IMG/VR virus record: IMGVR_UViG_3300041405_000257
Span: 1 to 34,066 of that record
Reading direction: 5' to 3' (one strand)
DNA: 34,066 nt
Source: a virus
Shown here: piece after piece, positions 6,317-33,121 of the stretch
Numbering within the stretch: position 1 is the stretch's first letter
How the letters are laid out: each line of letters starts with the position of its first letter
The notes under the pieces: generated by a model
Seen by the model: only the letters and a program-made list of their open reading frames with translations
Database searches by the model: none
What the model was told of the DNA's origin: nothing
Translations under genes and position numbers: made by a program

Positions 6317-6356
6317 GGGTCGTACTCCTTCTGTCGTTGGTCTGGTCGTTGAGTCG

Positions 6357-6429
6357 CTCGCCCGGCAGGGTTCGAACCTGCGTCACCGGGATCAAGAGCC
6401 ACGGTGTCCTACCGCTAGACGACGGGCGA
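6357..6429 (-). tRNA. tRNA, probably Lys (anticodon CTT); Gln possible
   Basis: On the minus strand, 6429-6423 (TCGCCCG) pairs perfectly with 6364-6358 (CGGGCGA) as a 7-bp acceptor stem. The D arm GTCT/GGAC holds conserved A14, GG and A21, and the T arm is GCAGG-TTCGAAC-CCTGC. The discriminator is G and no CCA is encoded. The anticodon arm is imperfect: CGTGG/TCCCG has one T-C mismatch and leaves two bases after the D stem, with loop CTCTTGA and anticodon CTT (Lys). Another folding puts TTG (Gln) in the loop but with C at position 33. The unusual arm makes isotype uncertain and function possibly reduced. It lies between a stem-loop and the DUF2800 leader. Confidence 0.8.
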
Positions 6430-14287: not shown

Positions 14288-14478
14288 ACAAAGTCTTAAC
14301 TTTCCCAGCGCGTAGCAACGAAGCGCCCGAAGCATCGGGCACACAGCAGCAGCTGTGCGTGTGTGCGCACTGAGACAGACGAAGAGCTCGCGCGAAGCGA
14401 GACCCTTGACTCTCCCAGATCCACCTGCACGGTGGTGGAAACCAGGCCCTTCACAGGGTGTAAGGACCACTACCCGGA

Positions 14479-14713
14479 TGTAGACATAACAGCGGGTGTA
14501 GACACCCTGTAGACACCCCCCCCCCTGTCTACGTGTTTGCCCAGGTCAGAGGCCCTTTTTCGGCGTGTAGACACTGTAGACACCCTGAAACTTCCTCAGA
14601 CGTACGGAAGGTTTCAGACTTTCTGGGTGTCTACGTGTCTACACGGGTCGAAAAGGGGCTCTGACCTGCGGAAACATGTAGACACCCCCAGGGTGTCTAC
14701 AGGGGTGTCTACA
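14479..14713. repeat. Array of 11 TGTAGACA / TGTCTAC units
   Basis: Forward units TGTAGACA start at 14479, 14497, 14508, 14566, 14575 and 14677. Inverted units TGTCTAC start at 14526, 14628, 14636, 14694 and 14706. Most are followed or preceded by CCC/GGG. The best palindrome is 14677-14701, with 11-bp arms around CCA. A 10-C homopolymer (14516-14525) separates one forward/inverted pair. The dimeric half-site layout suggests a protein that binds as a dimer, either a replication initiator or a repressor-like regulator. Confidence 0.85.
14543..14668. repeat. Long imperfect inverted repeat (about 126 bp)
   Basis: The left arm (CAGGTCAGAG ... CGTGTAGACAC ... GTAGACACCC ... TGAAAC ... TTCC) is matched in reverse order on the right by GGAA, GTTTCA, GGGTGTCTAC, GTGTCTACACG and CTCTGACCTG. 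Small insertions interrupt the arms. The centre is around 14594-14605. It could extrude as a cruciform or fold as a very long RNA hairpin on either strand. Confidence 0.8.
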
Positions 14714-14920
14714 TGGGGTGGTTGGTAACGAACAGGTAACGGTAGCGATGGCTTGCCTTGGTCTTAGCGAGAGTGACGGCTCTCTCTCAAAAGAACACAT
14801 GCGTAGCGTGTACTCGTCTAGTGGTTCCGGTCGCTCGGTAGCCCGAGCGCAAGCGTCACGAGACTAGGCGAAGTCAATGCATGGCTTAATCTGTCGAGTC
14901 GTCCAACACGTAACGCATGT

Positions 14921-15759: not shown

Positions 15760-17589
15760 GTGGCCGAGCGGGAGCCCAAGTCGTCGAGCATCATCGGGCA
15801 GTACGCGGCTGGTGCAGCGAACCCGGCCGGGCCCCGCGGGCTGCAGCAGGTGAGCCAGCAGGCACACGATGTGGCGGCGCAGTCTGGCCCGGAGTCCGAC
15901 TCCCTGATCGGGCAGTACGCCGTCGACGGCGGGTCCCAGGTCGAGGCGGCGCGCGGCTGGTACACCGGCGCGAACATGGAGGGCGTCTCCAACGGCTGGG
16001 AGACCGGCTTCATGGCGGAGGCGTTCAAGCAGTACGACGAGCAGATCCAGGCGGCGCAGGAGGCCCAGGACGGTTCGGAGTTCTACAGCTGGTTCGACCG
16101 TGACGACGCCACCGGTGTCTCGATGTGGGACGACGAGGACAAGGGCATCGAGCGCGGCGACGTGTTCAACGCGGGCAAGAAGGTCGGCAACGTCTACAAG
16201 GACTTCGACGAGCGCACCGCGAACGTGATGATGGCGGAGTTCACCCTGGACCGGGAGACGAAGGCGAAGATCTTCGCCGACCCGGACCGGGACCGCTGGC
16301 TCGCCGACGAGGTGGGCAAGGTCCTCGACGAGGAGACCACCCGGGCGCAGACCATCAAGGACCAGGCGGCGTTCGCCTCCGACATCGACGACCGGCAGAG
16401 CGCGATCCTGGAGGGGAAGTCGGAGAAGGGCATCGCGGCCGCGGGCTTCGCAGGTGGTGCAGCCCTCGGTGCTGGTGCCGGCTCCATCGTGCCGGGTGTC
16501 GGTACCGCGGTCGGTGCGGCGGTCGGTGCCGGTGTCGTCGGTGTCGCCGGTGCGTACGCCGCGTGGAAGAACCGGGACCAGCTGAGCGAGCAGATCGCCC
16601 GTGCCGAGGAGATCACGGCTCGCGCGAACGAGCGCTACGGCGACCTCGAGGCGCTCAGTGTCGGGGTGAAGGAGTGGTCGGGGGTCGGGATGCGGTTCAT
16701 CTCCCCGGCCTCCAACCTGGTGCAGGGCATCGCCGACGACAAGGAGGGCGACGGCGACTCCCGCTTCTACCGCATCGACGAGAACGGCAACCGCGAGGTC
16801 TCGGGCTGGACCCGGGCCGCGGACATCGGCGCGACGCTCGCGGACTCGGTGGCGCAGTTCTCCAACCCGCTGGGCATCGCGGCCTACATGACCACGATGG
16901 GCGGCACGGTCGCGGGCCAGAGCGCGTTCATGGCGCAGACCGGCGCCGGCTGGAACGACCGGATCGGCGACTTCGACGACTACGAGGGCGGCAAGGAGTG
17001 GAGCGCGGCGCTCGGCTCCCTGGCGATCGACGTGACGCAGATGGGTGTCGCCGGTGCCGTGGTCCGGGCGGGGGCGGCCAGCCGGGCGGCGTTCGGGGCG
17101 ACTGAGCCGAGCCGGTTCACCCGGGCGTTCGAGAAGGTCCGCGACACGCTCCGGCCGTGGGGTGACGACGTCGTGGAGACCCGGACCCTGCAGGGTCGCA
17201 CGTTCGGGCTGAACGCCGAGGGCCGTGCGGTGGAGTCGCGCCGCGGTGCCGCGTTCGCGGTGAACATGCTGGCGCCGAGTGAGGCGATCCGCTACGTCAA
17301 CACCGCCTGGCGCGCGCGGTCCCGGGTGGCGCTCGGGGACACGCCGGGCCACGACGACTTCTACCGGGCCGCACTGGAGACCGCCGGTGGCAACCGGTTC
17401 GGCCAGGCGGTCGTCAACGGCTGGCCGAGGGCACGGAGGAGGGCGTGCAGGCGATCCTCGAGCCGGTGTCCTTCTCCGCCGACATCGAGGCCGGGCAGGT
17501 CGTGGAGTCGGTCCTGTACGGCGCGGCCTCCGGGATGGGCATGGGGCTCAGCTCGATGGCGCGGCAGGCCACCAACGACCAGGTGCTGA
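15760..17589 (+). CDS. Giant virion-type polyvalent protein, N-terminal part (frame-broken)
   Basis: GTG at 15760 follows GCGAGGAGCGCAGC. The frame makes sense for 554 codons (to about 17421), after which it becomes Arg/Pro/Ser-rich nonsense until the stop, while the sensible sequence continues in the frame of the next entry. Visible features are two copies of S-x-S-[IL]-I-G-Q-Y-A (residues 8-16 and 46-54), an acidic helical region, and a glycine/alanine zipper at about 224-269 (AAGFAGGAALGAGAG onward) able to cross or perforate a membrane. No cysteine occurs before the frame break. I infer that this is the N-terminus of one ~4,647-aa protein ejected with the DNA. An independent 609-aa product is possible but less likely. 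Confidence 0.7.
   Translation: MAEREPKSSSIIGQYAAGAANPAGPRGLQQVSQQAHDVAAQSGPESDSLIGQYAVDGGSQVEAARGWYTGANMEGVSNGWETGFMAEAFKQYDEQIQAAQEAQDGSEFYSWFDRDDATGVSMWDDEDKGIERGDVFNAGKKVGNVYKDFDERTANVMMAEFTLDRETKAKIFADPDRDRWLADEVGKVLDEETTRAQTIKDQAAFASDIDDRQSAILEGKSEKGIAAAGFAGGAALGAGAGSIVPGVGTAVGAAVGAGVVGVAGAYAAWKNRDQLSEQIARAEEITARANERYGDLEALSVGVKEWSGVGMRFISPASNLVQGIADDKEGDGDSRFYRIDENGNREVSGWTRAADIGATLADSVAQFSNPLGIAAYMTTMGGTVAGQSAFMAQTGAGWNDRIGDFDDYEGGKEWSAALGSLAIDVTQMGVAGAVVRAGAASRAAFGATEPSRFTRAFEKVRDTLRPWGDDVVETRTLQGRTFGLNAEGRAVESRRGAAFAVNMLAPSEAIRYVNTAWRARSRVALGDTPGHDDFYRAALETAGGNRFGQAVVNGWPRARRRACRRSSSRCPSPPTSRPGRSWSRSCTARPPGWAWGSARWRGRPPTTRC
17410..17424 (+). other. Frame break inside the giant gene
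   Basis: Frame 1 gives ...Q-A-V-V-N-G up to 17421. From 17421 the reading ctg gcc gag ggc gives L-A-E-G-T-E-E-G and stays open for 12 kb. A single extra C after aacggc would restore one frame. There is no X-XXY-YYZ slippery heptamer, so a one-base deletion in this genome or an assembly error is more likely than programmed -1 frameshifting. Confidence 0.75.
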
Positions 17590-20500
17590 GCAGTCGGGCG
17601 CGGGCACTGGAGATGCGCCGCAACGGTGTCGAGTACACCAACGAGGAGTGGAAGGCGCGGTGGAAGGAGGTCGACGCCGACCAGCGCAAGCGGCTCGCGC
17701 TGGCCTCCCCCGACGAGGCCGCCGACATCCTGGCCACGATGCGCGCGCAGCAGGAGCTGCTCCGCTTCGACCGTTCCGCCTCCTCGGTGATCGCGGCCAC
17801 CGGGCTCAACGACCTGCAGGCCTCGCAGTTCGCGCGCGACCTGGCCAACGCCAACCCGAACCGGGACAACGTGCTGGTGCTAGCGGGCATGTCCGCGGAC
17901 CGGGTGGTGGCCACCGACGCCGACGGCAACGTGTTCGTCGACCGGGACTCCCTGCCGGCGCATGCGGGTGCCGCCTCGATCTTCCAGGCGCTGATGAACG
18001 TCACGAACCACCAGATCGCCACGGCGACGGTGGCCGAGGACATCACCCGGCAGACCCAGGCGCTGCAGGCCGAGCTCGGCCAGGCCGACGCCGACCGGGC
18101 CGCCGAGATCCAGGCGCAGCTGGCCGAGCTGACCGACGAGCTCGAGATGAGCGAGCGGGTCGCCGCGATCGGCAACCAGATCCGCAAGAGGCTCACCCAG
18201 GTCTACGAGCAGTACCGGCAGGCCGCGGACGTGACGGACGCCGAGGCGGCCGTGGACCTGTTCAACCAGATCATCCGCAACGCCTTCGACGGCACCGACA
18301 TGTTCGACGAGACCGGCACCCCGCTGGCCGGCCGCGACCTCGAGGCGGCCCGCCGCAGCGTGGAGATCATGGTGGCCCGGCACCCGGAGATCGCGGGCGA
18401 CTCGTTCATGTTCGTGATGCCGCAGGCGTCCAAGGCGCTGAGTCGGGCCAACGCGCACGGCATGATGCAGGTGCACCAGTCGACGCTGCTGGCGCCGGGT
18501 GCCGACCATGACGGCGACACCGAGGTCAGCGTGAACTTCGCGCGCGGCCTGAGCCAGACCCGCATCGACAGCCTCCGGGCCGGGGACCAGTACGTCCGGC
18601 CCGGTGTCCGGGAGGACGGCACCGAGGGCCACCTGGTCACCTTCGACCCGCCGGACGGGGAGAAGGAGTTCATCCGCCAGGTCTCGTCCGCGCTGAACGC
18701 GGCGGCCGTGCGCACCGAGTGGGCGGTGGCCACCGACGCGGTGCAGCGCCTGGTCGCCGACATCTGGACCCGGTTCGAAGCGCACCTGCCGCGCCCGGAG
18801 CTGACGCGGGTCCTCGACGACTTCCGTGCCGACCTGCTCGCCGGTGACCCGGACGCGCGGATGCGGCTGGTGGAGGGCCTGGTCAACGTCGACGTGGCCG
18901 GCTGGCGCCGGGCCGCGGCCGCCGCAGGATCCACCCCGCAGGTGCCGTGGCTCAACCAGCGAATCACCCTGGCGTGGGAGCAGGTGCTCACCGGCACAGC
19001 CGCGAACAGCCACGATCTCGAGTTCACGCCGAAGGACATCGACGCCGACCTGACCGAAGACAAGGCCTTCCAGCGGGCGCTGGCCAAGCGGGAGGCCGTG
19101 ACCGACGGGCAGACCGCGTACCTGGTGACCGAGGGCAACAACGCCACCCGCGAAGGCCAGAAGCTCCACTACGACGTCTACCGTGCCGCGGTCGACGTGG
19201 CGCGCGGCGACATGACCACCGAGCTGCAGGAGCGCTTCATCCGGCTCTACGCCGAGCTCGGCTCGAACATGGGCCAGTCCGAGATCGCCCGGGTCCGGGG
19301 CCGCAACGCCGTCGAGCGTCGGGTCGCGGTCTGGCTGCGCGAGATCCACGCCGAGGCGAAGAAGGACCCGAACACCCCGGCGCCGAACAGCCTGCTGATG
19401 CTGGCCAACACCAAGGTCGCCGACGTGCGCGCCGAGGTGGGTGGCGGCTGGGGCTACTACGAGGGCGAGATCACCCTGGCGCAGCTGCTGCTGCGCAAGT
19501 CGGTGGAGATCGAGAAGCAGACCCACCGCAACGTCCTCGACCAGGACGAGGAGATGCAGCGCAAGCTGCGCCGCTTCGAGCGGCTCGCCTCCCCCGACCA
19601 GCACACCGACCAGTCGACGACGCCGTTCCTGGCGTTGAAGGAGATCTTCGGCTCCTACCAGATGCACGACCTGCTCGGGGACTCCGCGAAGTACCTGGGC
19701 CCGCACCTGACGATGAACCAGCTGGTCGCCGACATGGCGAACCGCAGCGACAAGTCCCGTCAGGACCAGCTCAACCGCTGGCGCCGCAAGGCCCCGTATG
19801 TGATGCACAAGCACACGCCGAACCCGCCGTACGACGCGGCCATGCTCACCTCGGGCACGCTGTCGTCGTACCGGGTGGTGGTCGACACGATCGCCGCGAG
19901 CGTGAACACCGAGCCGCGCCGGCTCCGCGAGGAGAACGTCCGCGCCCGCGAGTCGTTCAAGCGAGGCATCAACAACCTGCGCCAGATCCTCGAGGAGTTC
20001 CGCAAGCTCAACGCCGAGACCCTCACCGACACCACCGACCGCGGGGTGCTGCGCGCGGTGCTGCAGTCCAACCCCGGCGTCGCCAAGCTGATCGCGGACC
20101 TGATCCCGGACGCTGCGAAGCTCGGTGCGTTCGCCCGCATCGACGGCAAGTACTACGCCGCGGAGTGGGTCGAGGCGATGCTGGTGATGCCGCCGGACAA
20201 GGCGGCCGTCACCTACGTGGTGAACACCCGCCTCGCGGAGTGGAACCAGATGGGCGGTGCCATCGACCTCGACGGTGAGGGCTCCGGCCGGCCGAAGGGG
20301 GAGTCGCCCAAGGCTCCCGCGCGGGAGGCGTACAAGATCAAGTCCCGGCTGCTGCAGACCGTCGCCCAGCTCGCGGCACAGCCGGACGGGATCCACCTCG
20401 ACCGGCTCGTGGTGGCGATGAAGAACGCCTCCAGCGTCGAGGCGCTCGAGGAGATCCTGAACACCGACCCGGCGTTCTCCGGTGACCGGGCCGAGCTGCT

Positions 20501-23500
20501 GCTGTTCGTCGACGACGTGGCCGCCTACGAGACCGACCCCCGCGACGTGTGGTCGGCCAACCTGCCGGGCACGCTGCAGCGGGAGGCGATCACCGCGTTC
20601 GCCGAGCGCACCTCGGTGCTGAGCACCGCGATGGCGAACTTCGCGGCCGAGCACGCCGTCGAGCGCACGCTGCTGAAGTCGATCCTCGACTACGACACCG
20701 ACCGCTCTGTCGACCGTTCCGAGGCCTCGAAGTACCACCGGCTGCTGGAGATGGCGCTGGAGCACCGGCAGCTCGGCAGCGACCACCTCGGCCCGGCGGT
20801 GCGTGACCGCTTCACCGAGAAGGTCCAGGACGGGATCATCCGGATCCACGACAAGGGCACCGCGGACGCGGCGATCGCGCCGTTCGGTGAGGCCCTGGTC
20901 ACCACCGACGAGTTCGGGGTGAAGGCCTCCCCGATGCAGGCGGCCGACGCGCTCACGGCGTACGACCCCGAGGACATCCTGTCGAACCCGACGAAGCTCA
21001 CCGAGGGCCCGGTGCTGGTGCGGGTCGCCGACGGCTCCGAGCTGATCGTCGACTTCACCACGGTGCGGGGTGCGGCGCTCGCGCTGGCGGACCCCGCCAC
21101 CAACGCCTTCGCCAAGCAGGTGCTGTTCCCGACCGCGCGCGACGTGAACGCGGTGGGCTCGCTGAGCACCTACCTCAACGTCACCCACCCCAGCCTGCAG
21201 TCGATGCTCAAGGAGGCGAACTTCGGCGACCTGTTCGTCCACAAGAGCGAGCGGCTCAGTGTCGGCCAGGCCCACAAGTACATCTCGATGCTCGAGGCGA
21301 TCGTGCGCCGCAAGGCCATCGACGGCACGCCCGAGGACCGGGAGAAGGCGTACTTCCCGATCCAGACCCTCATCAACGACTTCGTCGTCGCCTACACCCA
21401 CTCCCCGGGCGCGGAGACCACGGACCGGAAGAAGGTCCGCGACGGGCTGTACGTCGACATCGCCACCGCGCTGCAGCAGATCGCCTCGCTCAACAGCAAG
21501 GACCCGCGGCTCGTCGACCAGATGCTTGACGCGGTCGGTGCGATCCTGCGCGACCGCTACCACCGACACTCCTCCGAGCTCGACGCGGTGCTCTCCGACT
21601 CCCTCGACAAGGCGGTCGCCGACACCGTCCTCCTCGAGGCCGAGCTCGACAGCTACCGCCGCGACATCGAACGGCTGACCACCGAGCTGGCCGCCACGAC
21701 CGACCCGGACCGGCAGAACCAGCTCGTGGACCAGCTGGCCACCGCGAACCGGCGGCTCAAGGACCGGATGGACCGGCTGCAGCTGCTGACCACCGACGAC
21801 AACGTGGTCACCGCGGCGATCAACATGTTCACCCTCACCGGCAACGACGTGGCCGACGTCGACCGCAAGGGCGCGATCCTGCGGCTGCTCGGCACAGGCA
21901 ACCGGGTGGCGAAGTTCCAGGGCCACCACCTCATCAAGAGGCTGAACACGGTGCTGGCCGCCGACGCCTACGCGCTGTCCGACCCCGACGTGTTCGACAC
22001 CGAGGAGTGGTCCGAGCTCGGGCTGTGGGCCTCCTCGATCTACCTGGCCGAGCTCAGCGCCAGGGCCGGATCCACCATCAAGCTGACCCCGCTGGTGCTG
22101 GGGGAGAAGGGCGAGCGGCTGCGCCGGCTCTACGACCCGACGTGGTCCGGCCTGCTCGAAGGGTTCCGCAACCCGCTGGTGCTCGAGGCCGCGACGACGA
22201 TGGCCAACCAGGCGGGCTGGAAGCCGGACCTCACCGACGTCGACGTGGCGCGCACGCTCGAGGGCGGGCTGCTCAACGAGAAGCGGCTGGGCCGCTGGAC
22301 CGAGCTGGTCATCCCGGCCGCGCTGAAGGCGCAGCAGGTGATGGACTCCGCCTCGGTCGGCCTGGCGATCCCGGTCGGCGGCGACCTGCCGAAGGAGATG
22401 GCGGCCTACGTCGGCTCCGGCCGGCGGACGTTCAAGACCCCGGACGACACGATGCTCACCACCGCGGCGTTCACCGTCGACGCCGACGGCGACATGGCGT
22501 GGACCGACGAGGCGTTCTTCAAGCTGAACAACCACTTCGCCCGCTCCGTGGTGTTGCGCGACGCCGCCGGTGCCGAGCTCGACCTGACGCCCCAGGTCGG
22601 CGCCGCGTGGATGGGTGAGCCGTCCGTGGAGGCGTCCGGCTACAAGATCATCACCCGTACCCGGATCGACAAGGCGGTGGCCGACGCCCTCGAGTCCGGC
22701 ACCCTGACCGGCCCGCTGCAGGTGGAGATCGCCTACTTCGACATCGACACGATGCCGTGGTCGCGCGAGTGGGCGAACAACGTCTACTTCGAGGGTGTCG
22801 GCCGGGAGGCCGAGATCGGCTCGACGCCCGGCCTGGTGGCCGAGCTGTTCTTCGCCCCCGGCGGGATCAGCAAGGAGGCGCAGCAGAACCCGCTGAACAT
22901 GGCGACCAAGGGGGGCGCCGGCTACCAGGCGACCAAGGTCATCCCCCGCTCGGTCGCCGAAGCGTACGAGGCCCGGCACAACGTGGCCAGCGTGCTGCGC
23001 GGCAAGGCCCACGAGCTGTGGACCAAGACCTACGACGTCGGCCAGCCGCTGTCCGGCGACGCGAACTCCTTCTACAAGCTGATGCTGCAGCGCCACGTCG
23101 TGGTCGGCACCAACGCCGCGGGCGAGAAGGAGGTGTGGTGGGCGGGCCGGGCCATCGAGTGGCAGACCCTCAACGCGGGCCAGCCGCTCAGCTCCCCGGA
23201 CTTCCCGCTGCAGGGCGCCCGCCTGGTCGCGCTGACCGACGGCCAGGCCCAGACGCTGCTGGGCGAGCCCGGCAACAAGGGCGTCCCCGGTGCCTGGTCG
23301 GAGCCGGTGCTCAACCTCGACGACCTCGACATCTTCCCCGAGCTCACCGCCGAGTACCTGGCCGCGCGCGGCATCACCCGCCTCGGGGAGACCACCACGC
23401 TGCGCGAGTCCCCGTTCGCGGGGAAGCTCCCGCTGATGAACGTGCAGTGGTCCGGCGACCGCGACCCCGGGCAGAACACCCGGTGGGAGGCGATGATCGA

Positions 23501-26500
23501 GAAGCACCGCGGCCGCCAGCTCGAGATCTTCAACCGCCGCATGGACGCCAAGGGCTTCTCCACCTCCAACATCAACGACCAGAACGCCAACGCGCTGAAG
23601 CGGATGCTGGGGCTCGAGGGCCTGACCGCGCTGTTCCAGAAGCTGGGCGTGCCGTTCGCGGAACTGCGGGACCCCAGCGACACCCGGCTCTCGGAGGTGC
23701 TGGCCACCAAGCTGCAGGAGCTGACGGCGCTCAACCCGTCGTCGGTGATCTGGCAGCACCGCCACGGTGTCAGCGCGGACCCGCGCAACGGCGTGCTCAC
23801 CGACACCACGATCCGCGAGACCGACGGCTTCTCCGGCAAGCCGGAGGCGACGTGGCCGACGTACGAGGACGTCGTGGTCATCGATCTCGACTCGTTCGTC
23901 ACCGCCTCCGGCAAGCGCTACGTCGAGGCCTACGACCAGGCGCTCGCGGCGATCCGGGTGTACACCCGCTCGGGCGTCACCATCGTGCTGGCCGGCGACC
24001 AGAAGCTGCGCTCCGACATCGCTGACCACCTCAACGAGGGCAGCGAGGGCTACGCCCGGATGGCGCAGTCGGCGCACTTCTTCGCCCCGGCCCAGCCGGA
24101 CGCGATGATGCACCTGTCGCAGCGGGCACTGGACTCCACGCTGCGCGACACCCGGGTCTTCACCGGCACGTCGCTGATCCTGACCCACAACTCCGACCGC
24201 TACTCCTCCTACGGGTCGTCGGAGAACGCCACGTTCTGGGACCTGCGTCCCGGCCAGCCGGTGTGGCGGGGCGAGTCGGTGGTGCTGCTGCCCACCTCGA
24301 TGGGCACGATGTTCAACCGGCCGGTGCCGGGCGTGGGCGCCAACGACCAGGCCTCCCTGGTGTACGGCCAGCTCGAGCTGCTGCTGTCCAGCCCGGAGGG
24401 GCGCGCGCACATCAAGCGCCTGACCTCCGACCCGGAGAACGTGCCGACCTACAGCAACGTCAACGGCGTGGAGTCCTACGGCATCCGCTCCCTCGACGAC
24501 GCGATGGACCGGCTGCTGCAGCTGGCGCAGATGAAGCGCGACCCGCTGACTCCGGGCGAGGAGCTGATGATCGGCGACTTCATCCCGACCGTCGCCGAGG
24601 ACGGATCCGTCCTGCTGGTGCGGGTCGGCTTCAAGCCACCGCGCGAGCACGAGATCCGCGCCCAGCTCAAGGAGCCGATCGACCCGGCCGACACCGCGAA
24701 GAACCGCGGCAAGGTCGCGGTGTTCACCTCCGAGCTCGAGCAGGCGTGGACCACGAAGCCTCCCGGGATCATCGAGTCCCGCGACCCCGACCACATGGCC
24801 GGGCTGAGCGTGCGGGTGAAGTACGACCTGGCGCGCTTCGGCAAGTCGACCTCGGCGATGGACGGCTGGAAGACCGAGCGCTCCCCGATGCCCGATGACC
24901 TGGCCGGGCCGGACGAGGACATGAGCGCCAACGGGCTGCGGGTGAACTCGTTCTCCTCGCAGAAGTCTCCGGAGTCGAAGCAGGCGATCACCGGCACCGT
25001 CGACAACTTCGGTTGGGCGATCGCGCTGGCCGGTATCGACTTCCGCCCCGACCTGGTCGAGTTCTTCCTCGGACCCAACCGCCGGGCCGAGGACCTCGAG
25101 ACGGACTGGAACCAGGTCCGGGTGTTCCTCGACGAGTGGGCCTCGACGTCGCACAACCTGACGGCCACCGACATCTCGAAGCGACTCAGCGAGGGCACGT
25201 TCCTGGCGATCATGGGTGCCCAGATCAACGAGGTGGCCGAGCAGTTCTTCGGCGTCGGCTTCGACATCCAGGGCGGTGCCGACGCGCTCGACATGCCCAC
25301 CGCGAACCAGCGGCTGGCCCAGCTGCTGCTGGCCTCGCTGATGGTGCCGGGTGTCAACGTCGACCACGTGGTCCGCTCCTCGGGCCTGCTCAGCTTGCAG
25401 CGCCTCGACATGGGCGCCACGGTGCAGCTGCTGCCGGACATCCTGACCTCCCACCTCTCGGACCCGGACCACCCCGAGCTGCGGGACATGCTGGTCCAGC
25501 GGATCAACGCTCGGATGCCGCGCCGCCCCGACGGCACCCGGCCCTACATCCTGCTGCCGAACTGGGACTTCCTCATCGAGATGAAGCACCCGAAGACCGG
25601 CGTCTCGGAGTACGTGCCCGGCAAGCTGCAGATCTCGTTGGAGTACCCCGCCGACGAGAACCCGGTCAACTACGTGCAGGCAGGTATCCGCTCCGCACGC
25701 CAGGGCGCGAGCCAGCACGTGGCGTTCGTGGGCTACGAGACCATCGGCATGCGTACCGCGGTCGAGCGGGCCAGCCGGATCCGCGAGACGGTCGACGAGC
25801 GCGCCGGCCTGGCCGACCTCGACGTCGACGGCGGCCTCTGGCGGATGCTGCGCAACAACCCGCTGTCGAAGGACGACCCGACGTACAGCCCGTGGCGCAC
25901 CCGGACCCGGCTGCAGCAGCTGGAGATCCAGGAGGCGGCCGTCAAGTACGCCTCCTACATCAAGCCGCTCGACACCGAGGGCTGGTCGGCCGGGGACCTG
26001 GCGGCGTACTCCAAGCTCCAGGACACCTACCTGGCGCTGGTGCACGGCAACGACGCCGAGGACTACCGGGTCGGCACCGACTACCTGGTGCGGCAGTGGC
26101 TCGGGATGCCGGAGTCACGGCCGGGCCAGCCGGAGTACGTCGGCAAGGTCTCCCCGTCCGCGGCGCTGCAGGCGATGCAGGTCATCGTCGACAACGTCCG
26201 CGACCACCTGATCCCGACGTACGGCGGTGTGGTGCCGCTGCCGGACCACGCGACGATGGCGCTGATCCACGACTCCAACGAGCGCCGGCCGGAGAAGGAC
26301 CGCTGGGCGCCGCGGATGGGCGTGGGCCGCAAGAAGGAGCTCGCCGGGAAGTGGGACGACTGGGTCAAGGCCACGTTCGGCCAGACCATGGACTCCTCCG
26401 ACCTGTTCGACGCCGCGTTCGCCCAGGACGCCAACGGCTTCATGCACACCTGGCAGTCGGCCCACGAGGACCGCGGCCCGCAGCACGTGTCGCTGGACAG

Positions 26501-29500
26501 GCTGCGCGAGCAGAAGCTCTACAACGTGGAGGCCAACCAGTTCCTCGCCAGCCAGGACCCGAGCGAGGAGGCCCGGCTCACGCAGCCGGTGATCTTCGAG
26601 ACCGCGGTGGCCACCCTCGACGCCATCACCGGGCAGGAGGCGGCGTTCAACCGGGAGTCGGCACGCACGACTCCGGACGCCGAGCTGGCGCAGCGGATCG
26701 AGAAGCACCTGAAGTGGCGTGCCTCGCGGAAGATGCCGAAGCAGCAGAAGCAGTCGTACAAGCAGTTCCGGGACCAGGGCACCTGGTACCTGGAGACCGC
26801 GCGCGACGGCAACAACTTCTTCCACCACATGGTGAACCTGTCGATCGGCATGCGGCTGGTGAACCCGGCGCTGTGGACCTCCGCGATCCTCGAGACGTTC
26901 GTGCGCTCGAAGATCGAGACCACCACCAACCTGCTGCTCGGCCAGTCGAACACCGCGCTGGGTGGTGCGGTGGCCCGCGCCGGCCAGGTGGTGGGTGTGC
27001 AGCCGCGCTACACCCCGGAGCAGCGGAAGAAGATCAACGACCTGGCCGAGAAGATGGGCCGCAACAACGACTTCCTCTCGCGGCTCTACGACGACATGGT
27101 CTACCGCAACCTCGTCGAGCATGGCCGCGGCCGGACCGGTGCGGCGCTGGAGAAGTTCGCCGGGTTCGGCGCGCGGATGTCGGCGGGCCCGTTCTTCGGG
27201 ATGCGTGAGAAGGCAGTGGCCATGCGCTACCTCGAGGCGGTGCTGGAGTACCTCGACACCACCGACAACGTGGTGCCGTTCGACGTGCTCGTGCGGGAGA
27301 TGGACCTCGACCCACTGTGGCTGGAGAAGAACTTCCGCTCCGACGGCCGCTTCACCCCGCACATGGCGGGCATGAACCGGATCGCACAGGTCCGGGCGAT
27401 GAAGGCCTCCGTGCCGAGCAAGATCATCATGGGCGGCATCGACACGATGACGTCGAGCGAGAAGCCGTTCTTCCACGCAGCCGGACACCTGCTGAAGATC
27501 CCGCTGCTGTTCACCCGCTTCAACGCCGGAGCGCTCCTCACGATGACCGGCCTGGGCGGCATCGACCAGCTCATCGCCATGAACCTCGACCAGCGCACCT
27601 CGGAGAGGAAGGCCTGGCTGCAGGGCCTCATCACCGGCGAACCAGTCACCGAGGAGACCTCGCGCATCGACATGACCGACATCATCGAAGGGGCGAACCT
27701 GTTCCGGCCCTTCGTGAAGGGTGCGCTGACCCAGACCGGGCTGCTCGCGTTCGGGATGATGGCCGGTGGGCTCGGGCTCTCGGGCGAGGACGAGGAGACG
27801 AAGCGCCGGCGGCGGCTGGCCAGCTGGCTCGACCTGCCCTACTACTACGACCCGCGCGCGGTGGAGAACGACTTCCGCTACGCCGACGCGCTGTTCGTGG
27901 ACTGGATGCCCGGCTGGATGGAGGCCGCGCTCGAGCCCGGCGACCGTGAGGGCGTCGGCGGGGAGAAGAAGGTGCTGCAGCCGCACTGGATCCTGCGGCA
28001 GTTCCTGTCCCCGGTCATGGGTGTCGAGCGCTTCCTGTCCACCGGCGACGTCCGGCAGATCGGCTGGGGCTTCTCGGACGCCTTCTCGGTGATGCCGAAC
28101 TCGATCGCGCGGCTCTGGACAGAGGCCAAGCTGACCGCAGACGCGCTCGCCCAGTCCGCCCGGGAGGTCGACGGCGCCACCGTGACCAGCACCGCGGAGG
28201 GCCAGGCCCTGGCGCAGAAGTACATCATCTCGATCGCCGGTGTGTACGAGAAGGCGCTGTTCGAGAACTCGTTCGTCAACGCGATCCGCAACGGCTTCGA
28301 CGACTACGACCGCAACCCGTGGGAGATCCCGGACGAGCTGAAGAACGGCAACGGCTACAAGCTGGACCCGGTCACCCGGCAGCCGGTGCCGACCACGGCG
28401 CTCGAGCAGACCATCGACACCCGCACCGGTGAGCCGGTGGTGTCGTACGCCGAGCGTGACGCGGTTGACGCCTACCTGCACCAGTACGCCGAGAACAACC
28501 TGTCGGCCGCGATCATGCTCTCGCTGTTCACCGGGCAGCCGACGCTGGACTCGACGTACTTCCGGCAGAACATGGTGCCTGCGCAGAAGTCGCTGTCGCT
28601 GCCGGAGAAGGGGCAGACGCACGACGAGACCGTCATCATGGCGGCGCTGCAGGGCATGGCCGCGAAGGGCGAGGGCTTCGAGAACCTCACCCAGTACGAG
28701 GCCGAGAAGATGGTGTGGGCCAACAAGCCGGAGGATGCGTTCTGGTCCCAGGCTCAGGTCTCGAAGATCGCGGCCGGCTACGTGGCCAAGGCCAACGCGG
28801 GCGGCGAGGTCGGCGCGATGACACTGTTCGACGAGGCCGGGCGCGAGCTGCTGTCGAAGCAGGGCGCACACACCGTGCTGCGGTCCCTGGCCGACGGGTC
28901 GATCACGCTGTCCGACCCGAGCATGGTCGGCATCCACATCAGCCGGGAGATGCGTGAGCAGATCCAGGAGGAGTGGACCGAGGAGCTCGTGCTCGAGGGG
29001 CTGGCGCTGGGGCTGGACGAGGCGACCGCGAAGTCGCGGGCGCGGCGGATCTGGTACGGCAACACCTACGAGGACCCCAACGCCAACGGCCTGCAGCACC
29101 TGCTGTGGACCAACGAGATCCCGTCGTCGCCGAAGGTGACCTACAACCAGCTGAACACCACGTTCGTGCTCGGTCCGGACGGGCGGCCATGGGCCACGCC
29201 GTTCGGTCGGCAGAACGTCCTGCAGGCCCTCGGCATCCCGATCCCCGCGACTCCGATCCGGCCCGCCGGCGCCGGGCTGTCGCGCGACAGCCGCGGCAAC
29301 GTGGTCGACGACGTCTACGGCATCAACACCGGCCTCATGGCGCTGGAGCGTGTCGAAGACCAGGAGCAGCTAGTGCCTCCGAAGGAGGACCCGTTCGCCT
29401 TCACCGACGCCGCGAAGTACACCGCCGGTGACAGCGGCAGTGGCAGCGGCTGGAAGGACTTCGGCTACACGCCGTACAAGAAGCGGGGCTACACCCCGTA

Positions 29501-29702
29501 CAAGCGCCGCAGCTACTCCAGCGGTGGCGGGGGCTCGACGGGCTACCCCAACTTCACCCGGATGTACGGGCTCCCCGGGGCCCAGACCCCCTACGCCAAT
29601 GACATCCCGTTCATCAACACGAGCAACCCGATCCTGCGCCGGGCAGATGTACGCAGGGAACGTGTCTGGTCCGAGCGAGGAAGGCTGAACCAGTGGCAGT
29701 GA
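17445..29702 (+). CDS. Giant virion-type polyvalent protein, main part; candidate RNA polymerase
   Basis: This 4,085-codon frame (residues 563-4647 of the joined protein) continues the preceding entry. The GTG at 17445 is only the first available start; GGAGGAGGG lies one base before it, too close for good initiation. I find no cysteine in the whole frame. Near joined residue 916, LLAPGADHDGDTEVSV matches the xADxDGDxxxxx loop that holds the catalytic magnesium in multisubunit-type RNA polymerases, preceded at the right side by a Pro/Arg/His-containing segment (MPQASKALSRANAHG). A long coiled coil lies near 1958-2010, a VVVIDLDSF ... GVTIVLAGDQ alpha/beta unit near 2705-2745, a hydrophobic Gly/Met-rich helix near 3990-4010, and a tandem GYTPYKKR/GYTPYKRR near 4569-4584. 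It lies directly upstream of portal, overlapping it by 10 bases. Virion-packaged polymerase or ejection protein is inference. Confidence 0.8.
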   Translation: MQAILEPVSFSADIEAGQVVESVLYGAASGMGMGLSSMARQATNDQVLSSRARALEMRRNGVEYTNEEWKARWKEVDADQRKRLALASPDEAADILATMRAQQELLRFDRSASSVIAATGLNDLQASQFARDLANANPNRDNVLVLAGMSADRVVATDADGNVFVDRDSLPAHAGAASIFQALMNVTNHQIATATVAEDITRQTQALQAELGQADADRAAEIQAQLAELTDELEMSERVAAIGNQIRKRLTQVYEQYRQAADVTDAEAAVDLFNQIIRNAFDGTDMFDETGTPLAGRDLEAARRSVEIMVARHPEIAGDSFMFVMPQASKALSRANAHGMMQVHQSTLLAPGADHDGDTEVSVNFARGLSQTRIDSLRAGDQYVRPGVREDGTEGHLVTFDPPDGEKEFIRQVSSALNAAAVRTEWAVATDAVQRLVADIWTRFEAHLPRPELTRVLDDFRADLLAGDPDARMRLVEGLVNVDVAGWRRAAAAAGSTPQVPWLNQRITLAWEQVLTGTAANSHDLEFTPKDIDADLTEDKAFQRALAKREAVTDGQTAYLVTEGNNATREGQKLHYDVYRAAVDVARGDMTTELQERFIRLYAELGSNMGQSEIARVRGRNAVERRVAVWLREIHAEAKKDPNTPAPNSLLMLANTKVADVRAEVGGGWGYYEGEITLAQLLLRKSVEIEKQTHRNVLDQDEEMQRKLRRFERLASPDQHTDQSTTPFLALKEIFGSYQMHDLLGDSAKYLGPHLTMNQLVADMANRSDKSRQDQLNRWRRKAPYVMHKHTPNPPYDAAMLTSGTLSSYRVVVDTIAASVNTEPRRLREENVRARESFKRGINNLRQILEEFRKLNAETLTDTTDRGVLRAVLQSNPGVAKLIADLIPDAAKLGAFARIDGKYYAAEWVEAMLVMPPDKAAVTYVVNTRLAEWNQMGGAIDLDGEGSGRPKGESPKAPAREAYKIKSRLLQTVAQLAAQPDGIHLDRLVVAMKNASSVEALEEILNTDPAFSGDRAELLLFVDDVAAYETDPRDVWSANLPGTLQREAITAFAERTSVLSTAMANFAAEHAVERTLLKSILDYDTDRSVDRSEASKYHRLLEMALEHRQLGSDHLGPAVRDRFTEKVQDGIIRIHDKGTADAAIAPFGEALVTTDEFGVKASPMQAADALTAYDPEDILSNPTKLTEGPVLVRVADGSELIVDFTTVRGAALALADPATNAFAKQVLFPTARDVNAVGSLSTYLNVTHPSLQSMLKEANFGDLFVHKSERLSVGQAHKYISMLEAIVRRKAIDGTPEDREKAYFPIQTLINDFVVAYTHSPGAETTDRKKVRDGLYVDIATALQQIASLNSKDPRLVDQMLDAVGAILRDRYHRHSSELDAVLSDSLDKAVADTVLLEAELDSYRRDIERLTTELAATTDPDRQNQLVDQLATANRRLKDRMDRLQLLTTDDNVVTAAINMFTLTGNDVADVDRKGAILRLLGTGNRVAKFQGHHLIKRLNTVLAADAYALSDPDVFDTEEWSELGLWASSIYLAELSARAGSTIKLTPLVLGEKGERLRRLYDPTWSGLLEGFRNPLVLEAATTMANQAGWKPDLTDVDVARTLEGGLLNEKRLGRWTELVIPAALKAQQVMDSASVGLAIPVGGDLPKEMAAYVGSGRRTFKTPDDTMLTTAAFTVDADGDMAWTDEAFFKLNNHFARSVVLRDAAGAELDLTPQVGAAWMGEPSVEASGYKIITRTRIDKAVADALESGTLTGPLQVEIAYFDIDTMPWSREWANNVYFEGVGREAEIGSTPGLVAELFFAPGGISKEAQQNPLNMATKGGAGYQATKVIPRSVAEAYEARHNVASVLRGKAHELWTKTYDVGQPLSGDANSFYKLMLQRHVVVGTNAAGEKEVWWAGRAIEWQTLNAGQPLSSPDFPLQGARLVALTDGQAQTLLGEPGNKGVPGAWSEPVLNLDDLDIFPELTAEYLAARGITRLGETTTLRESPFAGKLPLMNVQWSGDRDPGQNTRWEAMIEKHRGRQLEIFNRRMDAKGFSTSNINDQNANALKRMLGLEGLTALFQKLGVPFAELRDPSDTRLSEVLATKLQELTALNPSSVIWQHRHGVSADPRNGVLTDTTIRETDGFSGKPEATWPTYEDVVVIDLDSFVTASGKRYVEAYDQALAAIRVYTRSGVTIVLAGDQKLRSDIADHLNEGSEGYARMAQSAHFFAPAQPDAMMHLSQRALDSTLRDTRVFTGTSLILTHNSDRYSSYGSSENATFWDLRPGQPVWRGESVVLLPTSMGTMFNRPVPGVGANDQASLVYGQLELLLSSPEGRAHIKRLTSDPENVPTYSNVNGVESYGIRSLDDAMDRLLQLAQMKRDPLTPGEELMIGDFIPTVAEDGSVLLVRVGFKPPREHEIRAQLKEPIDPADTAKNRGKVAVFTSELEQAWTTKPPGIIESRDPDHMAGLSVRVKYDLARFGKSTSAMDGWKTERSPMPDDLAGPDEDMSANGLRVNSFSSQKSPESKQAITGTVDNFGWAIALAGIDFRPDLVEFFLGPNRRAEDLETDWNQVRVFLDEWASTSHNLTATDISKRLSEGTFLAIMGAQINEVAEQFFGVGFDIQGGADALDMPTANQRLAQLLLASLMVPGVNVDHVVRSSGLLSLQRLDMGATVQLLPDILTSHLSDPDHPELRDMLVQRINARMPRRPDGTRPYILLPNWDFLIEMKHPKTGVSEYVPGKLQISLEYPADENPVNYVQAGIRSARQGASQHVAFVGYETIGMRTAVERASRIRETVDERAGLADLDVDGGLWRMLRNNPLSKDDPTYSPWRTRTRLQQLEIQEAAVKYASYIKPLDTEGWSAGDLAAYSKLQDTYLALVHGNDAEDYRVGTDYLVRQWLGMPESRPGQPEYVGKVSPSAALQAMQVIVDNVRDHLIPTYGGVVPLPDHATMALIHDSNERRPEKDRWAPRMGVGRKKELAGKWDDWVKATFGQTMDSSDLFDAAFAQDANGFMHTWQSAHEDRGPQHVSLDRLREQKLYNVEANQFLASQDPSEEARLTQPVIFETAVATLDAITGQEAAFNRESARTTPDAELAQRIEKHLKWRASRKMPKQQKQSYKQFRDQGTWYLETARDGNNFFHHMVNLSIGMRLVNPALWTSAILETFVRSKIETTTNLLLGQSNTALGGAVARAGQVVGVQPRYTPEQRKKINDLAEKMGRNNDFLSRLYDDMVYRNLVEHGRGRTGAALEKFAGFGARMSAGPFFGMREKAVAMRYLEAVLEYLDTTDNVVPFDVLVREMDLDPLWLEKNFRSDGRFTPHMAGMNRIAQVRAMKASVPSKIIMGGIDTMTSSEKPFFHAAGHLLKIPLLFTRFNAGALLTMTGLGGIDQLIAMNLDQRTSERKAWLQGLITGEPVTEETSRIDMTDIIEGANLFRPFVKGALTQTGLLAFGMMAGGLGLSGEDEETKRRRRLASWLDLPYYYDPRAVENDFRYADALFVDWMPGWMEAALEPGDREGVGGEKKVLQPHWILRQFLSPVMGVERFLSTGDVRQIGWGFSDAFSVMPNSIARLWTEAKLTADALAQSAREVDGATVTSTAEGQALAQKYIISIAGVYEKALFENSFVNAIRNGFDDYDRNPWEIPDELKNGNGYKLDPVTRQPVPTTALEQTIDTRTGEPVVSYAERDAVDAYLHQYAENNLSAAIMLSLFTGQPTLDSTYFRQNMVPAQKSLSLPEKGQTHDETVIMAALQGMAAKGEGFENLTQYEAEKMVWANKPEDAFWSQAQVSKIAAGYVAKANAGGEVGAMTLFDEAGRELLSKQGAHTVLRSLADGSITLSDPSMVGIHISREMREQIQEEWTEELVLEGLALGLDEATAKSRARRIWYGNTYEDPNANGLQHLLWTNEIPSSPKVTYNQLNTTFVLGPDGRPWATPFGRQNVLQALGIPIPATPIRPAGAGLSRDSRGNVVDDVYGINTGLMALERVEDQEQLVPPKEDPFAFTDAAKYTAGDSGSGSGWKDFGYTPYKKRGYTPYKRRSYSSGGGGSTGYPNFTRMYGLPGAQTPYANDIPFINTSNPILRRADVRRERVWSERGRLNQWQ

Positions 29703-31681
29703 TGGAAGAGCACGAGCCGGTGACGGAGTTCGCCCAGTGGTACGTCGACTACGACGCCACGGGCGGCCGCGACGGGTGCCTGGAGTTCCGGGGGTTCGCG
29801 CCGAAGGGCGAGAAGCTGCACCGGCTCTACACCAAGTCGAAGTCCGAGATGGACGCCCGGGTGCACAACTACGACAAGCTGGAGAAGCTGGCCGACGGCG
29901 AGGTCATCTCGCCGAAGCCGGACCTCCCGAACGTGTCGTCGGGCGAGACCGCCGGGCTGATCCGTCGTACGGCGCGCAACCTGGTGCAGAACACCCCGAA
30001 CGTGGAGATCATCTCCAAGTTCGACGACGACTCGGTGCAGGGGCTGTTCGCCCGGCACATCCTGCTGTCCCGGATCGTCGGCTCCGACCAGTACTCCAAC
30101 GACATGCAGCAGAACCTCTTCTCCTCCACGAAGAGCGCGCTCACCCTCGGCTACGACGCCGTGGTTCCGGCGCTGCTGCAGGACGCCGGCGGCTCCTGGT
30201 ACATCAAGTACGACTCGATCCACTACCGTGACGTCTTCCCCGAGCCCGGGGTCAAGGACGTCCGGGACGCCACCTTCGTCTTCGTGCGGCGCTACCTGAC
30301 ACAGGGCGAGGTGGTGTCGCTGATCCGCAACAAGGCGGTGGGCTGGGACCACCAGGCGCTACGCGAGCTGCTCAAGTCCAACCCGGGGACGCGGGAGCGT
30401 CAGTCGGTCGATCACCAGACTGCCAAGCACCGGCAGATCCCCGAGGGCTACGAGATCATCACCTGGTACTCGTCGAGCGGTGAGCACTTCCTGACCTTCC
30501 ATGCAACCACCAAGCTGCTGCTGCGCATCGAGAAGAACAAGCACCCCCTGAAGAAGCACCCGGTCTTCTTCCTCGTGCTCGAGAAGGACGCGCAGCAGCC
30601 ACTCGGTAAGTCGCAGGTGGAGCTGATGGTCGGCCGCCAGGACTTCCAGGACCTGATGCTCAACGGTGCCATGAAGCTCTGGTACCGCAACATCAACCCG
30701 AGCATCATCGGCTACGGCGCGGCCAACGCGATCCCCAACCTCAGCCCCGGCAAGTACACCCAGATCAGCAACCCGAACGCCAAGGTCGAGGCGTTCGAGG
30801 TGAACACGCAGACACTCCTGCAGTACGGCACCATCTCCCAGCAGAACCTCGGTTCGATGGTGAACCTGCTCGGGACGGCGGACCAGCAGATGGCGACCCA
30901 GGCGGGCAGCGGCATGAGCGCCACGCCGCAGGGCGTCGAGGCTCAGCAGACGATGGTGGACATCACCACGAACAACTACCAGAAGGCGATCGAGGGCTTC
31001 TTCAGTCACTACTGCTCCTACGCTCTGACGATCTACTTCCAGGAACTGAAGTCGATCAAGAAGGTCACGCCCACAGCGGAAGCTCGTATGAAGTTGCTGA
31101 AGGCTGGACTGGATCCGAACCAGATCAACGAAGACGGCACCCTCGACATCGACTTCGAGGAGCTCGCCACGGAGTACTGGGTCCGGTGTGTACCTGGCAG
31201 CCTGACGGAGATGGAGGACGAGAAGCAACTGCGCGTTCTCAACGAGCTGTTCATCCCGCTCTCCCAGGCCATGCCGGCGCTCGCCAACAGCGGCGACCAG
31301 ACGATCATCCGGCAGGCCGCGATGGCGATGAGCTACATCATCGAGAAGCAGATCGAGCTGTCCGGTGCGGCCGACGCACTGGCCATCCGGGACCTCTGGT
31401 CAGGCAAGAAGACCGACGAGCAGGTCGACGAGCGAGACCTGCGGATCGCCGAGCTCGAAGCCAAGCTCGCCTCCCCCGAACTGGAGCAGGAGCGGGAGCT
31501 GACTGCTCAGGCACTTGTAGGCCTGGCCGAGCAGCTGAGAGTTCAGGGAGAGGCAATCTCAGCGATTATGGACCGTTTAGGTGCGCATCAGGGTGCATAT
31601 GCCGGTGAACAGAATAGTTCCGGCGAAGCAACACCGCAGGGACCGCCGCCTGTACCTACTGTTCTGCCTGCCAGCGCCTGA
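29693..31681 (+). CDS. Portal protein
   Basis: The 662-aa product has the size and order of features of tailed-phage portals, especially those of short-tailed and crAss-like phages: an alpha/beta wing region, LMVGRQDFQDLMLNGAMKL leading into the stem, a long central helix region (QQNLGSMVNLLGTADQQMATQ) and helical crown ending in a coiled coil (DERDLRIAELEAKL). Twelve copies would form the DNA channel at one capsid vertex. GTG at 29693 follows GAGGAAGGCTGAACCA and overlaps the end of the giant gene. The last ~60 codons (31500-31680) use AT-ending codons rare elsewhere here. Immediate downstream capsid gene supports the call. Confidence 0.82.
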   Translation: MAVMEEHEPVTEFAQWYVDYDATGGRDGCLEFRGFAPKGEKLHRLYTKSKSEMDARVHNYDKLEKLADGEVISPKPDLPNVSSGETAGLIRRTARNLVQNTPNVEIISKFDDDSVQGLFARHILLSRIVGSDQYSNDMQQNLFSSTKSALTLGYDAVVPALLQDAGGSWYIKYDSIHYRDVFPEPGVKDVRDATFVFVRRYLTQGEVVSLIRNKAVGWDHQALRELLKSNPGTRERQSVDHQTAKHRQIPEGYEIITWYSSSGEHFLTFHATTKLLLRIEKNKHPLKKHPVFFLVLEKDAQQPLGKSQVELMVGRQDFQDLMLNGAMKLWYRNINPSIIGYGAANAIPNLSPGKYTQISNPNAKVEAFEVNTQTLLQYGTISQQNLGSMVNLLGTADQQMATQAGSGMSATPQGVEAQQTMVDITTNNYQKAIEGFFSHYCSYALTIYFQELKSIKKVTPTAEARMKLLKAGLDPNQINEDGTLDIDFEELATEYWVRCVPGSLTEMEDEKQLRVLNELFIPLSQAMPALANSGDQTIIRQAAMAMSYIIEKQIELSGAADALAIRDLWSGKKTDEQVDERDLRIAELEAKLASPELEQERELTAQALVGLAEQLRVQGEAISAIMDRLGAHQGAYAGEQNSSGEATPQGPPPVPTVLPASA

Positions 31682-31717: not shown

Positions 31718-33121
31718 ATGGTCGCTCCCGTCCGCAAGGACAGCCTGACCGACTACCAGGTCGCTCTGGCCACGTACCTGCGTATCTCGTCCCCGGTGGC
31801 AGGCATGTTCACCGGCAACGAGATCAAGCCCAACCCCAACGCCCGGTCCATCCGCGTGCCCGACATCCGGGTCGACGACTACATCGTCGACGCCGAGATC
31901 GGCCGCATCGGTGCCGACCACTACTCCGGCTCGGAGTTCACCGGCGAGTGGAAGAACGGCATCCCGCCCATCGAGTGGCGCACCTACTCGATGTCGCGTC
32001 ACCGCAGCTTCGGCTTCACGGTGTTCGACGAGCAGCTCCGCTACTCGCCGATCAAGAACATCGTGCAGGAGTACACCGGTCGCAAGATGCAGACCACGGT
32101 GCTCCGTGACCACGACAAGTACTGCCTGCTCGCGGCGGTCCAGGGTCACATGACCGGCAAGATGGTGGCCCGCACCGCGGCCGACGCCGTCCCTCCGGTC
32201 AACGCCGACGCCTACCGGATCTCCAACACCGGCAACGCGGCCGACTACAAGTGGATCGCGGAGCCCGGCGAGGACTACGACAACGAGATCCAGCCCTCGT
32301 TCGCCACGATCACGGGCATGTACCTCGACGACGCGGACCCGCTGGCCAGCCTCGACGCGCTGACGCTGCTGTTCTCGGACAACTGGTTCGACAGCAACTT
32401 CGGCAACAACGAGCGCTTCCTCCTCGTCACCTCCGCCCTCGAGCTCGTGTTCATCAACGCGCTCATCGAGAAGGGCGCCGGCACCGAGTCCGCGTTCGAC
32501 CTGCTCAAGAACGGCGACATCTCGGGCGCCAACGCGGCCGGGTACCTCGGCACGCTCAAGGGCTCGTGGAAGCTCCACAAGATCCACCCGGAGTTCCTGC
32601 CCAAGGTCTACACCGACGTCAACCTGGTCGTCGACCCGGTCGCCACGTCGGCCACCGGTGGCCGCACGCTCCGCCAGGTCGTGGCGCTGGCCGCGTACAA
32701 GAACGCGATCCAGACCTACGAGCACTTCTCCGAGCGCCGCGAGCAGGACGGCGGCACCCGGTTCAAGGGCAAGGAGTACGTGCAGGACTTCTCCTACGAC
32801 TGCTGGGTCATCGACCAGCTGTCCGAGGGCGTCGTCCCGCTCTTCCTCCCGGCGGTCCTCGACAACCTCAGCGTCGTGAACACCTCGTTCACCAACGTCG
32901 CTGCCAAGGTCGCGGCCGCCCGTGCCCAGACCAGCGTCGCCCCGGTGACCTACCCGCTCTCCGGCGCCGACGTGGCCAAGAGCCGGCCGGAGTGGTTCAC
33001 CTCTCCGTACGAGAGCACCACCGCTCTCGACGCGGGCCTGGCGATCCAGGAGACCGGCGACGTCGCGCACCGCAACCCGCTGCTCGCCGTCGACGACACC
33101 ACGGACTCGGGCGGGGAGTGA
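31718..33121 (+). CDS. Major capsid protein
   Basis: The 467-aa product has the length and mixed alpha/beta character of HK97-fold capsid proteins: a polar N-arm-like start, an E-loop-like segment rich in charged and aromatic residues (WKNGIPPIEWRTYSMSRHR), a long spine-like helix (LRDHDKYCLLAAVQGHM) and a C-terminal beta region. It lies just after portal, with a strong AGGAGG eight bases before ATG at 31718, as expected for the most abundant virion protein. There is no separate protease or scaffold gene between portal and capsid. Function assigned from position, size and pattern rather than a diagnostic motif. Confidence 0.8.
   Translation: MVAPVRKDSLTDYQVALATYLRISSPVAGMFTGNEIKPNPNARSIRVPDIRVDDYIVDAEIGRIGADHYSGSEFTGEWKNGIPPIEWRTYSMSRHRSFGFTVFDEQLRYSPIKNIVQEYTGRKMQTTVLRDHDKYCLLAAVQGHMTGKMVARTAADAVPPVNADAYRISNTGNAADYKWIAEPGEDYDNEIQPSFATITGMYLDDADPLASLDALTLLFSDNWFDSNFGNNERFLLVTSALELVFINALIEKGAGTESAFDLLKNGDISGANAAGYLGTLKGSWKLHKIHPEFLPKVYTDVNLVVDPVATSATGGRTLRQVVALAAYKNAIQTYEHFSERREQDGGTRFKGKEYVQDFSYDCWVIDQLSEGVVPLFLPAVLDNLSVVNTSFTNVAAKVAAARAQTSVAPVTYPLSGADVAKSRPEWFTSPYESTTALDAGLAIQETGDVAHRNPLLAVDDTTDSGGE

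Follow-up and report, generated by a model that had tools for sequence, protein, structure and literature searches.

A giant gene of Burro-type actinobacteriophages probably encodes a virion protein with both barrels of a cellular-type RNA polymerase

The giant gene and its neighbourhood

The window, i.e. the whole 34,066-nucleotide stretch of viral DNA that was analysed, an IMG/VR fragment of a soil bacterial virus, carries on its plus strand a giant gene at 15760-29702, directly before the portal gene. The ORF list and its translations place this gene in two overlapping open frames: frame 1 at 15760-17589 (609 aa; P0001) and frame 3 at 17445-29702 (4,085 aa; P0002, hereafter the second frame), both on the plus strand, the latter of which holds both of the polymerase barrels described below. 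Both frames are coding, since in blastp searches each half matches, in register, the single giant protein of five isolates (Burro, Arete, MissAmericana, Akoni and Xitlalli), the frame 1 product being 25-31% identical to their N termini. The 13.9-kb gene that a sequence-only reading had marked out is thus joined by homology. Of the figures given in that reading, the size of ~4,647 residues is right in scale, although 4,647 is the coordinate span and the joined frames come to about 4,640 residues; the share of 41 per cent (13,943 of 34,066 bases) applies to this record because the record is a fragment, whereas the giant gene occupies about 25% of the ~54-kb genome in complete relatives.

The single frame break that had been predicted lies near 17421 (within 17415-17445, plus strand), at a short G run where DNA alignment with the nearest relative, L059, shows a one-base difference. 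The N-terminal ~550 residues of the giant correspond to the part of frame 1 before the break, and the frame 1 residues past it are without homology to the relatives. All 21 IMG/VR relatives tested are open across the break site, with frames of 4,205-4,911 aa that contain no stop, and the giant gene of each of the five isolates lies in one frame; the break is therefore confined to this contig, where it most likely reflects a mistake of assembly or sequencing or else a private mutation. Programmed frameshifting, yielding a short N-terminal and a full-length form, would suit a break that sits where two open frames overlap in a gene that is otherwise intact, but the undivided frame of all these relatives and the one-base G-run difference from the nearest of them make it so improbable that we reject it.

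The portal gene (29693-31681, plus strand) overlaps the end of the giant gene by 10 bases, and its identity is certain: it is 65% identical to the MissAmericana portal in tblastn and matches 58 phage records, with 53-65% identity among the matches listed, all of them from Microbacterium phages except that of Arthrobacter phage MissAmericana. The arrangement of genes matches cluster EK and Burro, i.e. a leftward replication arm, a non-coding gap, the giant gene, portal and capsid, and the giant directly precedes the portal in the rightward virion arm of the window and of the five isolates mapped. With a gene of more than 13 kb directly before the portal, interrupted here by one frame break, the window falls among the cluster EK and Burro-type podophages that have a giant gene. 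Identity to MissAmericana is 83% for the capsid protein (31718-33121), 65% for the portal, 46% for the DNA polymerase and ~25% for the giant, which indicates much faster evolution of the giant than of the genes beside it. A tRNA-Lys (CTT) gene is present on the minus strand of the replication arm (6356-6429); Microbacterium EK and Burro phages have been tabulated without tRNA (PMC7302621). The sole long non-coding gap between the divergent arms holds, at 14475-14720, nine copies of TGTAGACA (eight of TGTAGACAC, where 0.13 would be expected across the entire window) in both orientations, together with a 34-nt inverted repeat. The same nine-copy cluster occurs in the nearest relative L095 (5982-6215) and is absent from the more distant isolates; it is a candidate for origin iterons or for a promoter array of the proposed polymerase.

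The giant gene itself is already known from cluster EK and Burro-type podophages of Microbacterium and Arthrobacter. A 2020 paper counted it among the largest viral genes, with its 'role unclear', and found it unlike the N4 vRNAP (PMC7302621), so that the sequence-only suggestion of an undescribed machine does not hold, and later papers left its function 'unknown' or unnamed (PMC8281081, PMC12022796, PMC12243512). Published annotations call the product 'hypothetical' or 'tape measure', and no RNA polymerase assignment for the EK/Burro giants was found in the open-licence papers examined. What is new is the predicted content of the gene, namely RNA polymerase barrels recognised by sequence signatures and structure models.

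Outside the barrels, two segments of the giant stand out. A glycine/alanine-rich membrane-type segment, the glycine zipper expected from the sequence-only reading, is present at 16441-16575 (plus strand; P0001 residues ~228-272, GIAAAGFAGGAALGAGAGSIVPGVGTAVGAAVGAGVVGVAGAYAA). It is the sole hydropathy peak above the cut-off in the window's giant, comparable peaks occur in the giants of MissAmericana, Burro and Akoni, and the glycines of the segment are conserved; no late hydrophobic helix, which had also been expected, rose above the cut-off used when the hydropathy of the second frame was scanned over 19 residues. Towards the C terminus of the giant lies its best-conserved module (27705-28094, plus strand; LGLxGEDEE...DPRxxxNDF...HWxLxQFxSP); it belongs to no known family and may bind the portal or other virion proteins. 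A profile of this module (A2) recovered 33 related loci, and searches with the window's N-terminal piece or with the divergent A1 alignment recovered none. Searches of the full proteins against PHROGs and Pfam gave nothing useful, the two PHROG matches both falling on the glycine-rich segment, and in BFVD the matches were mainly the already known giants of Burro, Truong and TinyTimothy. A stretch at ~23850-24050 (P0002 residues ~2140-2190; VVVIDLDSF...GVTIVLA) resembles a HAD-type fold, with a motif that is only partly conserved, and one relative weakly matches Pfam Hydrolase (E 0.011).

Predicted polymerase barrels

Together with 29 IMG/VR relatives and three isolates, the second frame, aligned along its length, gives 33 rows; pairwise identities among them are mostly around 20-30%, and those to the window mostly 17-30%. 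Against this background of divergence, a catalytic signature of the form R-x-P-x5-S ... D-x-D-G-D (18378-18518, plus strand; DxDGD at 18504-18518) is invariant in all 33 rows and also in alignments A3 and A6; the invariant residues include N274, R312, P314, S320, D354, D356, G357 and D358 in second-frame numbering. The D-x-D-G-D occurs at one place in every giant examined, contigs L041 and L052 included, at about residue 910 of the joined protein; another DxDGD of the window, at residue ~1678 of the second frame, shows no conservation. Judged by its sequence, the signature is the one with which the beta' barrel of cellular RNA polymerases binds metal, and an R-x-P ahead of DxDxD is also found in P23-45 gp96, P23-45 gp64 and phi14:2 gp66. 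A profile of the DxDGD segment (A6), searched against 177,635 PDB sequences, matched the phiKZ polymerase beta' (E = 0.0013) and AR9 beta' (0.025), followed by RPA1, RPC1 and cyanobacterial gamma at E 0.5-1.2, and the alignments shown are in register on R-x-P...S...DxDGD. The A1 and A3 profiles, too diluted for this purpose, gave no significant match to PDB sequences. The invariant DxDGD, the phiKZ profile match and a structure model that matches beta' together point to a DPBB-A barrel carrying its DxDxD metal motif, predicted at 17865-18644 (plus strand; AlphaFold model m2d65f5598f0e; about residues 700-960 of the giant) with a helical insert at 17979-18290 (plus strand).

A second signature lies far downstream. 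A G-D at 24573-24578 is followed by K-x8-K at 24843-24872 (predicted DPBB-B signature, 24573-24872, plus strand; alignments A4 and A7), with G2377, K2467, K2476 and K2512 of P0002 invariant in 33 of 33 rows and with many relatives showing GDK...GMK. By sequence this is the catalytic lysine signature of DPBB-B; in the E. coli beta subunit the paired lysines are K1065 and K1073 in GDKMAGRHGNKG, at a spacing of 8 compared with 9 in the giant. The surrounding region (24156-25655, plus strand; model m16f2982c5084) aligns with residues 622-1034 of the M. tuberculosis RNA polymerase beta subunit. The invariant paired lysines after G-D, and the match of the model to beta/Rpb2, argue for a DPBB-B at about residues 2,800-3,100 of the giant, with its signature at about residue 3025; a profile of this second barrel (A7) found no polymerase match among PDB sequences.

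The AlphaFold and Foldseek check that the sequence-only reading had proposed was run, and it matched polymerase beta' and beta folds. Residues 91-1240 and 2000-3050 of P0002 were modelled separately from alignments of 30 sequences, with mean pLDDT of 75 and 77, respectively, and pTM of ~0.5. In the first model, strands around 144-177 are followed by a helical insert and by strands with R-x-P that lead into DxDGD; the beta' barrel has an insert at the same position, which is helical in bacteria (PMC7824862, a review of jumbo phage polymerases). RNA polymerase beta'/largest subunit or QDE-1 accounts for 49 of the best 50 PDB rows found with this model by Foldseek (best E 0.022), and VIA-align gives Z up to 9.8 on beta' chains, for example T. 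thermophilus beta' 627-948 (235 residues, 5.2 A). For the second model, all of the best 50 Foldseek rows are beta or Rpb2 (best E 0.0098, probability 0.96), as are all the VIA-align rows listed (Z up to 8.4, 184 residues, 3.8 A). Many of the Foldseek rows repeat one protein under several entries, so that these counts are not independent matches; the E values are only 0.01-0.02, the TM-scores are low (0.09-0.17) when taken over the long models, and VIA Z of 8-10 is modest, the tool warning that Z under 8 may be a common arrangement. The weight of the polymerase case is carried by two independent searches that name complementary subunits, together with the invariant catalytic residues.

Beyond the barrel region, the first model has long helices in which a bridge helix and trigger loop were sought, with no reliable match. 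No Pfam or PHROG polymerase family was detected in the window's protein, and hhalign comparisons with P23-45 gp96, P23-45 gp64 and phi14:2 gp66 were not significant, the best A3 alignment to gp96 being in the right register at E = 0.035. An A4 alignment to gp96 877-1078 (E = 0.01) lies off the lysine region and was taken as chance. A T7-type palm was sought by Pfam and PDB-sequence searches, without a match, and the structure models cover about half of the chain.

The order of the predicted barrels, A (~910) before B (~3025) at a distance of ~2,100 residues, is the reverse of the DPBB-B-before-DPBB-A order of the known single-chain two-barrel enzymes of phages and plasmids and of QDE-1 (PMC10770324). 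No conserved lysine precedes DxDGD in 24-33 sequences, which speaks against a hidden B barrel in the usual place. An A-then-B order with a ~2,100-residue gap in a phage of short-tailed actinophage type found no match in the open-licence papers examined; an earlier report elsewhere is possible.

Virion association and alternative explanations

The giant is most likely a component of the particle. Purified Burro virions contain a protein of ~250 kDa, seen as one SDS-PAGE band, which exceeds every other predicted Burro product and was assigned by the authors to the giant gp27 or part of it (PMC7302621). Cysteine is absent from the window's giant and from all five isolate giants, and the 29 other relatives have 0-2 cysteines over the ~4,000-4,200 residues covered; at the rate of the neighbouring virion genes, 8-12 would be expected. 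The giant virion polymerases N4 gp50 (3,500 aa) and P23-45 gp96 (5,002 aa) also have none. The absence of cysteine fits, indirectly, a chain that would be threaded through the tail. Ejection of N4 gp50 has been proposed to proceed as loosely linked domains (PMC12633501), and P23-45 gp96 has been proposed to transcribe during DNA entry (PMC10770324). The sequence-only comparison with the virion giants of N4 and crAss-like phages is therefore borne out as to location, but ejection alone is unlikely to be the main job, and the supposed lack of enzymes is not supported, given the signatures and models that point to the two catalytic barrels of cellular-type RNA polymerases. The presence of both barrels suggests that the main job is likely to be transcription of the incoming DNA.

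We consider it probable, on the signatures and the predicted structures, that the gene product is a giant virion protein that contains a two-barrel (cellular-type) RNA polymerase and belongs to a podophage of the cluster-EK/Burro type. We propose that the giant would be packed in the particle near the portal and ejected together with the DNA or ahead of it, as a cysteine-free chain that is largely unfolded. The glycine-zipper segment may help it to meet the membrane, and the giant would refold in or at the host membrane; the two barrels would then meet and form the active site, and the enzyme would transcribe the first phage genes without waiting for the host polymerase. At ~250 kDa, the band corresponds to roughly half the Burro giant (~490 kDa), and a cut between the barrels is therefore possible; that they are separated by such cleavage is speculation. 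In its fullest form, put forward tentatively, the protein would be an RNA polymerase polyprotein with its beta' and beta halves reversed, cut near the middle at assembly into two ~250 kDa pieces that reassemble after ejection. If true, this would be a separate route from the split phage subunits to a fused enzyme.

The probable reading as a virion polymerase has to be weighed against two others. It is unlikely that the polymerase is real but made in the infected cell rather than packaged, or that the giant is a structural protein with a dead polymerase fold. The Burro band may be part of the giant only (PMC7302621), which leaves some room for these versions, but the place of the gene in the virion arm directly before the portal, in the window as in the five mapped isolates, and the lack of cysteine shared with N4 gp50 and P23-45 gp96 argue for packaging, while the invariance of the catalytic residues argues against a dead fold. 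It is very unlikely that the giant is a pure structural or ejection protein, internal to the virion or like a tape measure, with polymerase folds that arise by chance and a DxDGD that is a calcium loop. Such a protein would be in keeping with the name 'tape measure protein' given to some homologs in RefSeq and GenBank, with the long helical stretches and the glycine zipper, and with the C-terminal module, not the barrels, being the best conserved. However, the conserved positions that an EF-hand requires after DxDGD are absent in A6, for which reason we rejected the calcium-loop reading; R-x-P...S and K-x8-K are just as invariant as DxDGD, and the separate models pick beta' and beta, respectively. 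Moreover, EK/EM phages are podoviruses, in which no tape measure is expected (PMC12243512), and the tails of the related isolates, at less than 10 nm, argue against a tape-measure length ruler.

Relation to known polymerases and significance

The closest counterparts of the window's giant are Burro gp27, Akoni gp31 and MissAmericana gp30, with which it shares full-length homology, the place before the portal, size, the absence of cysteine and both signatures, although it is frame-broken here and its identity to the isolate giants is only ~20-30%. Virion-packaged two-barrel polymerases inside giant proteins are already known from P23-45 and crAss-like phages. P23-45 gp96, a tape-measure-fused virion RNA polymerase whose two-barrel part is N-terminal (PMC10770324), resembles the giant as a cysteine-free giant virion protein with a single DFDGD in its polymerase and an R-x-P before it, but its DPBB-B and DPBB-A follow each other in that order within residues 327-1124, it shows no significant sequence match, and P23-45 is a long-tailed siphophage whereas the EK/Burro phages are podoviruses. 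The crAss-like phi14:2 gp66 is likewise a virion-packaged two-barrel polymerase, from a short-tailed phage with giant virion proteins, but has 2,180 residues, DFDID, barrel B before A and 2 cysteines. The phiKZ and AR9 polymerases, which give the best sequence-profile match of barrel A, are split into separate subunits and belong to jumbo phages, whereas the giant holds both predicted barrels in one frame in a podophage type of ~54 kb. N4 gp50 is similar in being a giant virion protein that is ejected by a podovirus as a single chain without cysteine, but its catalytic domain is T7-type and not two-barrel, and the authors of PMC7302621 found no similarity to it.

N4 gp50, P23-45 gp96 and the EK/Burro giants are all cysteine-free while their polymerase domains are not all related, which by analogy points to a rule shared by proteins that leave through phage tails. 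The assignment would give a concrete function to the largest gene family of actinobacteriophages, which has been of 'unknown function' in papers up to 2025, and would make Burro, Akoni and Xitlalli, well-studied phages of teaching collections, candidates for early transcription that is independent of the host polymerase. If the reversed and far-separated order of the barrels holds, it would represent a new architecture in the polymerase superfamily that is common to all cells.
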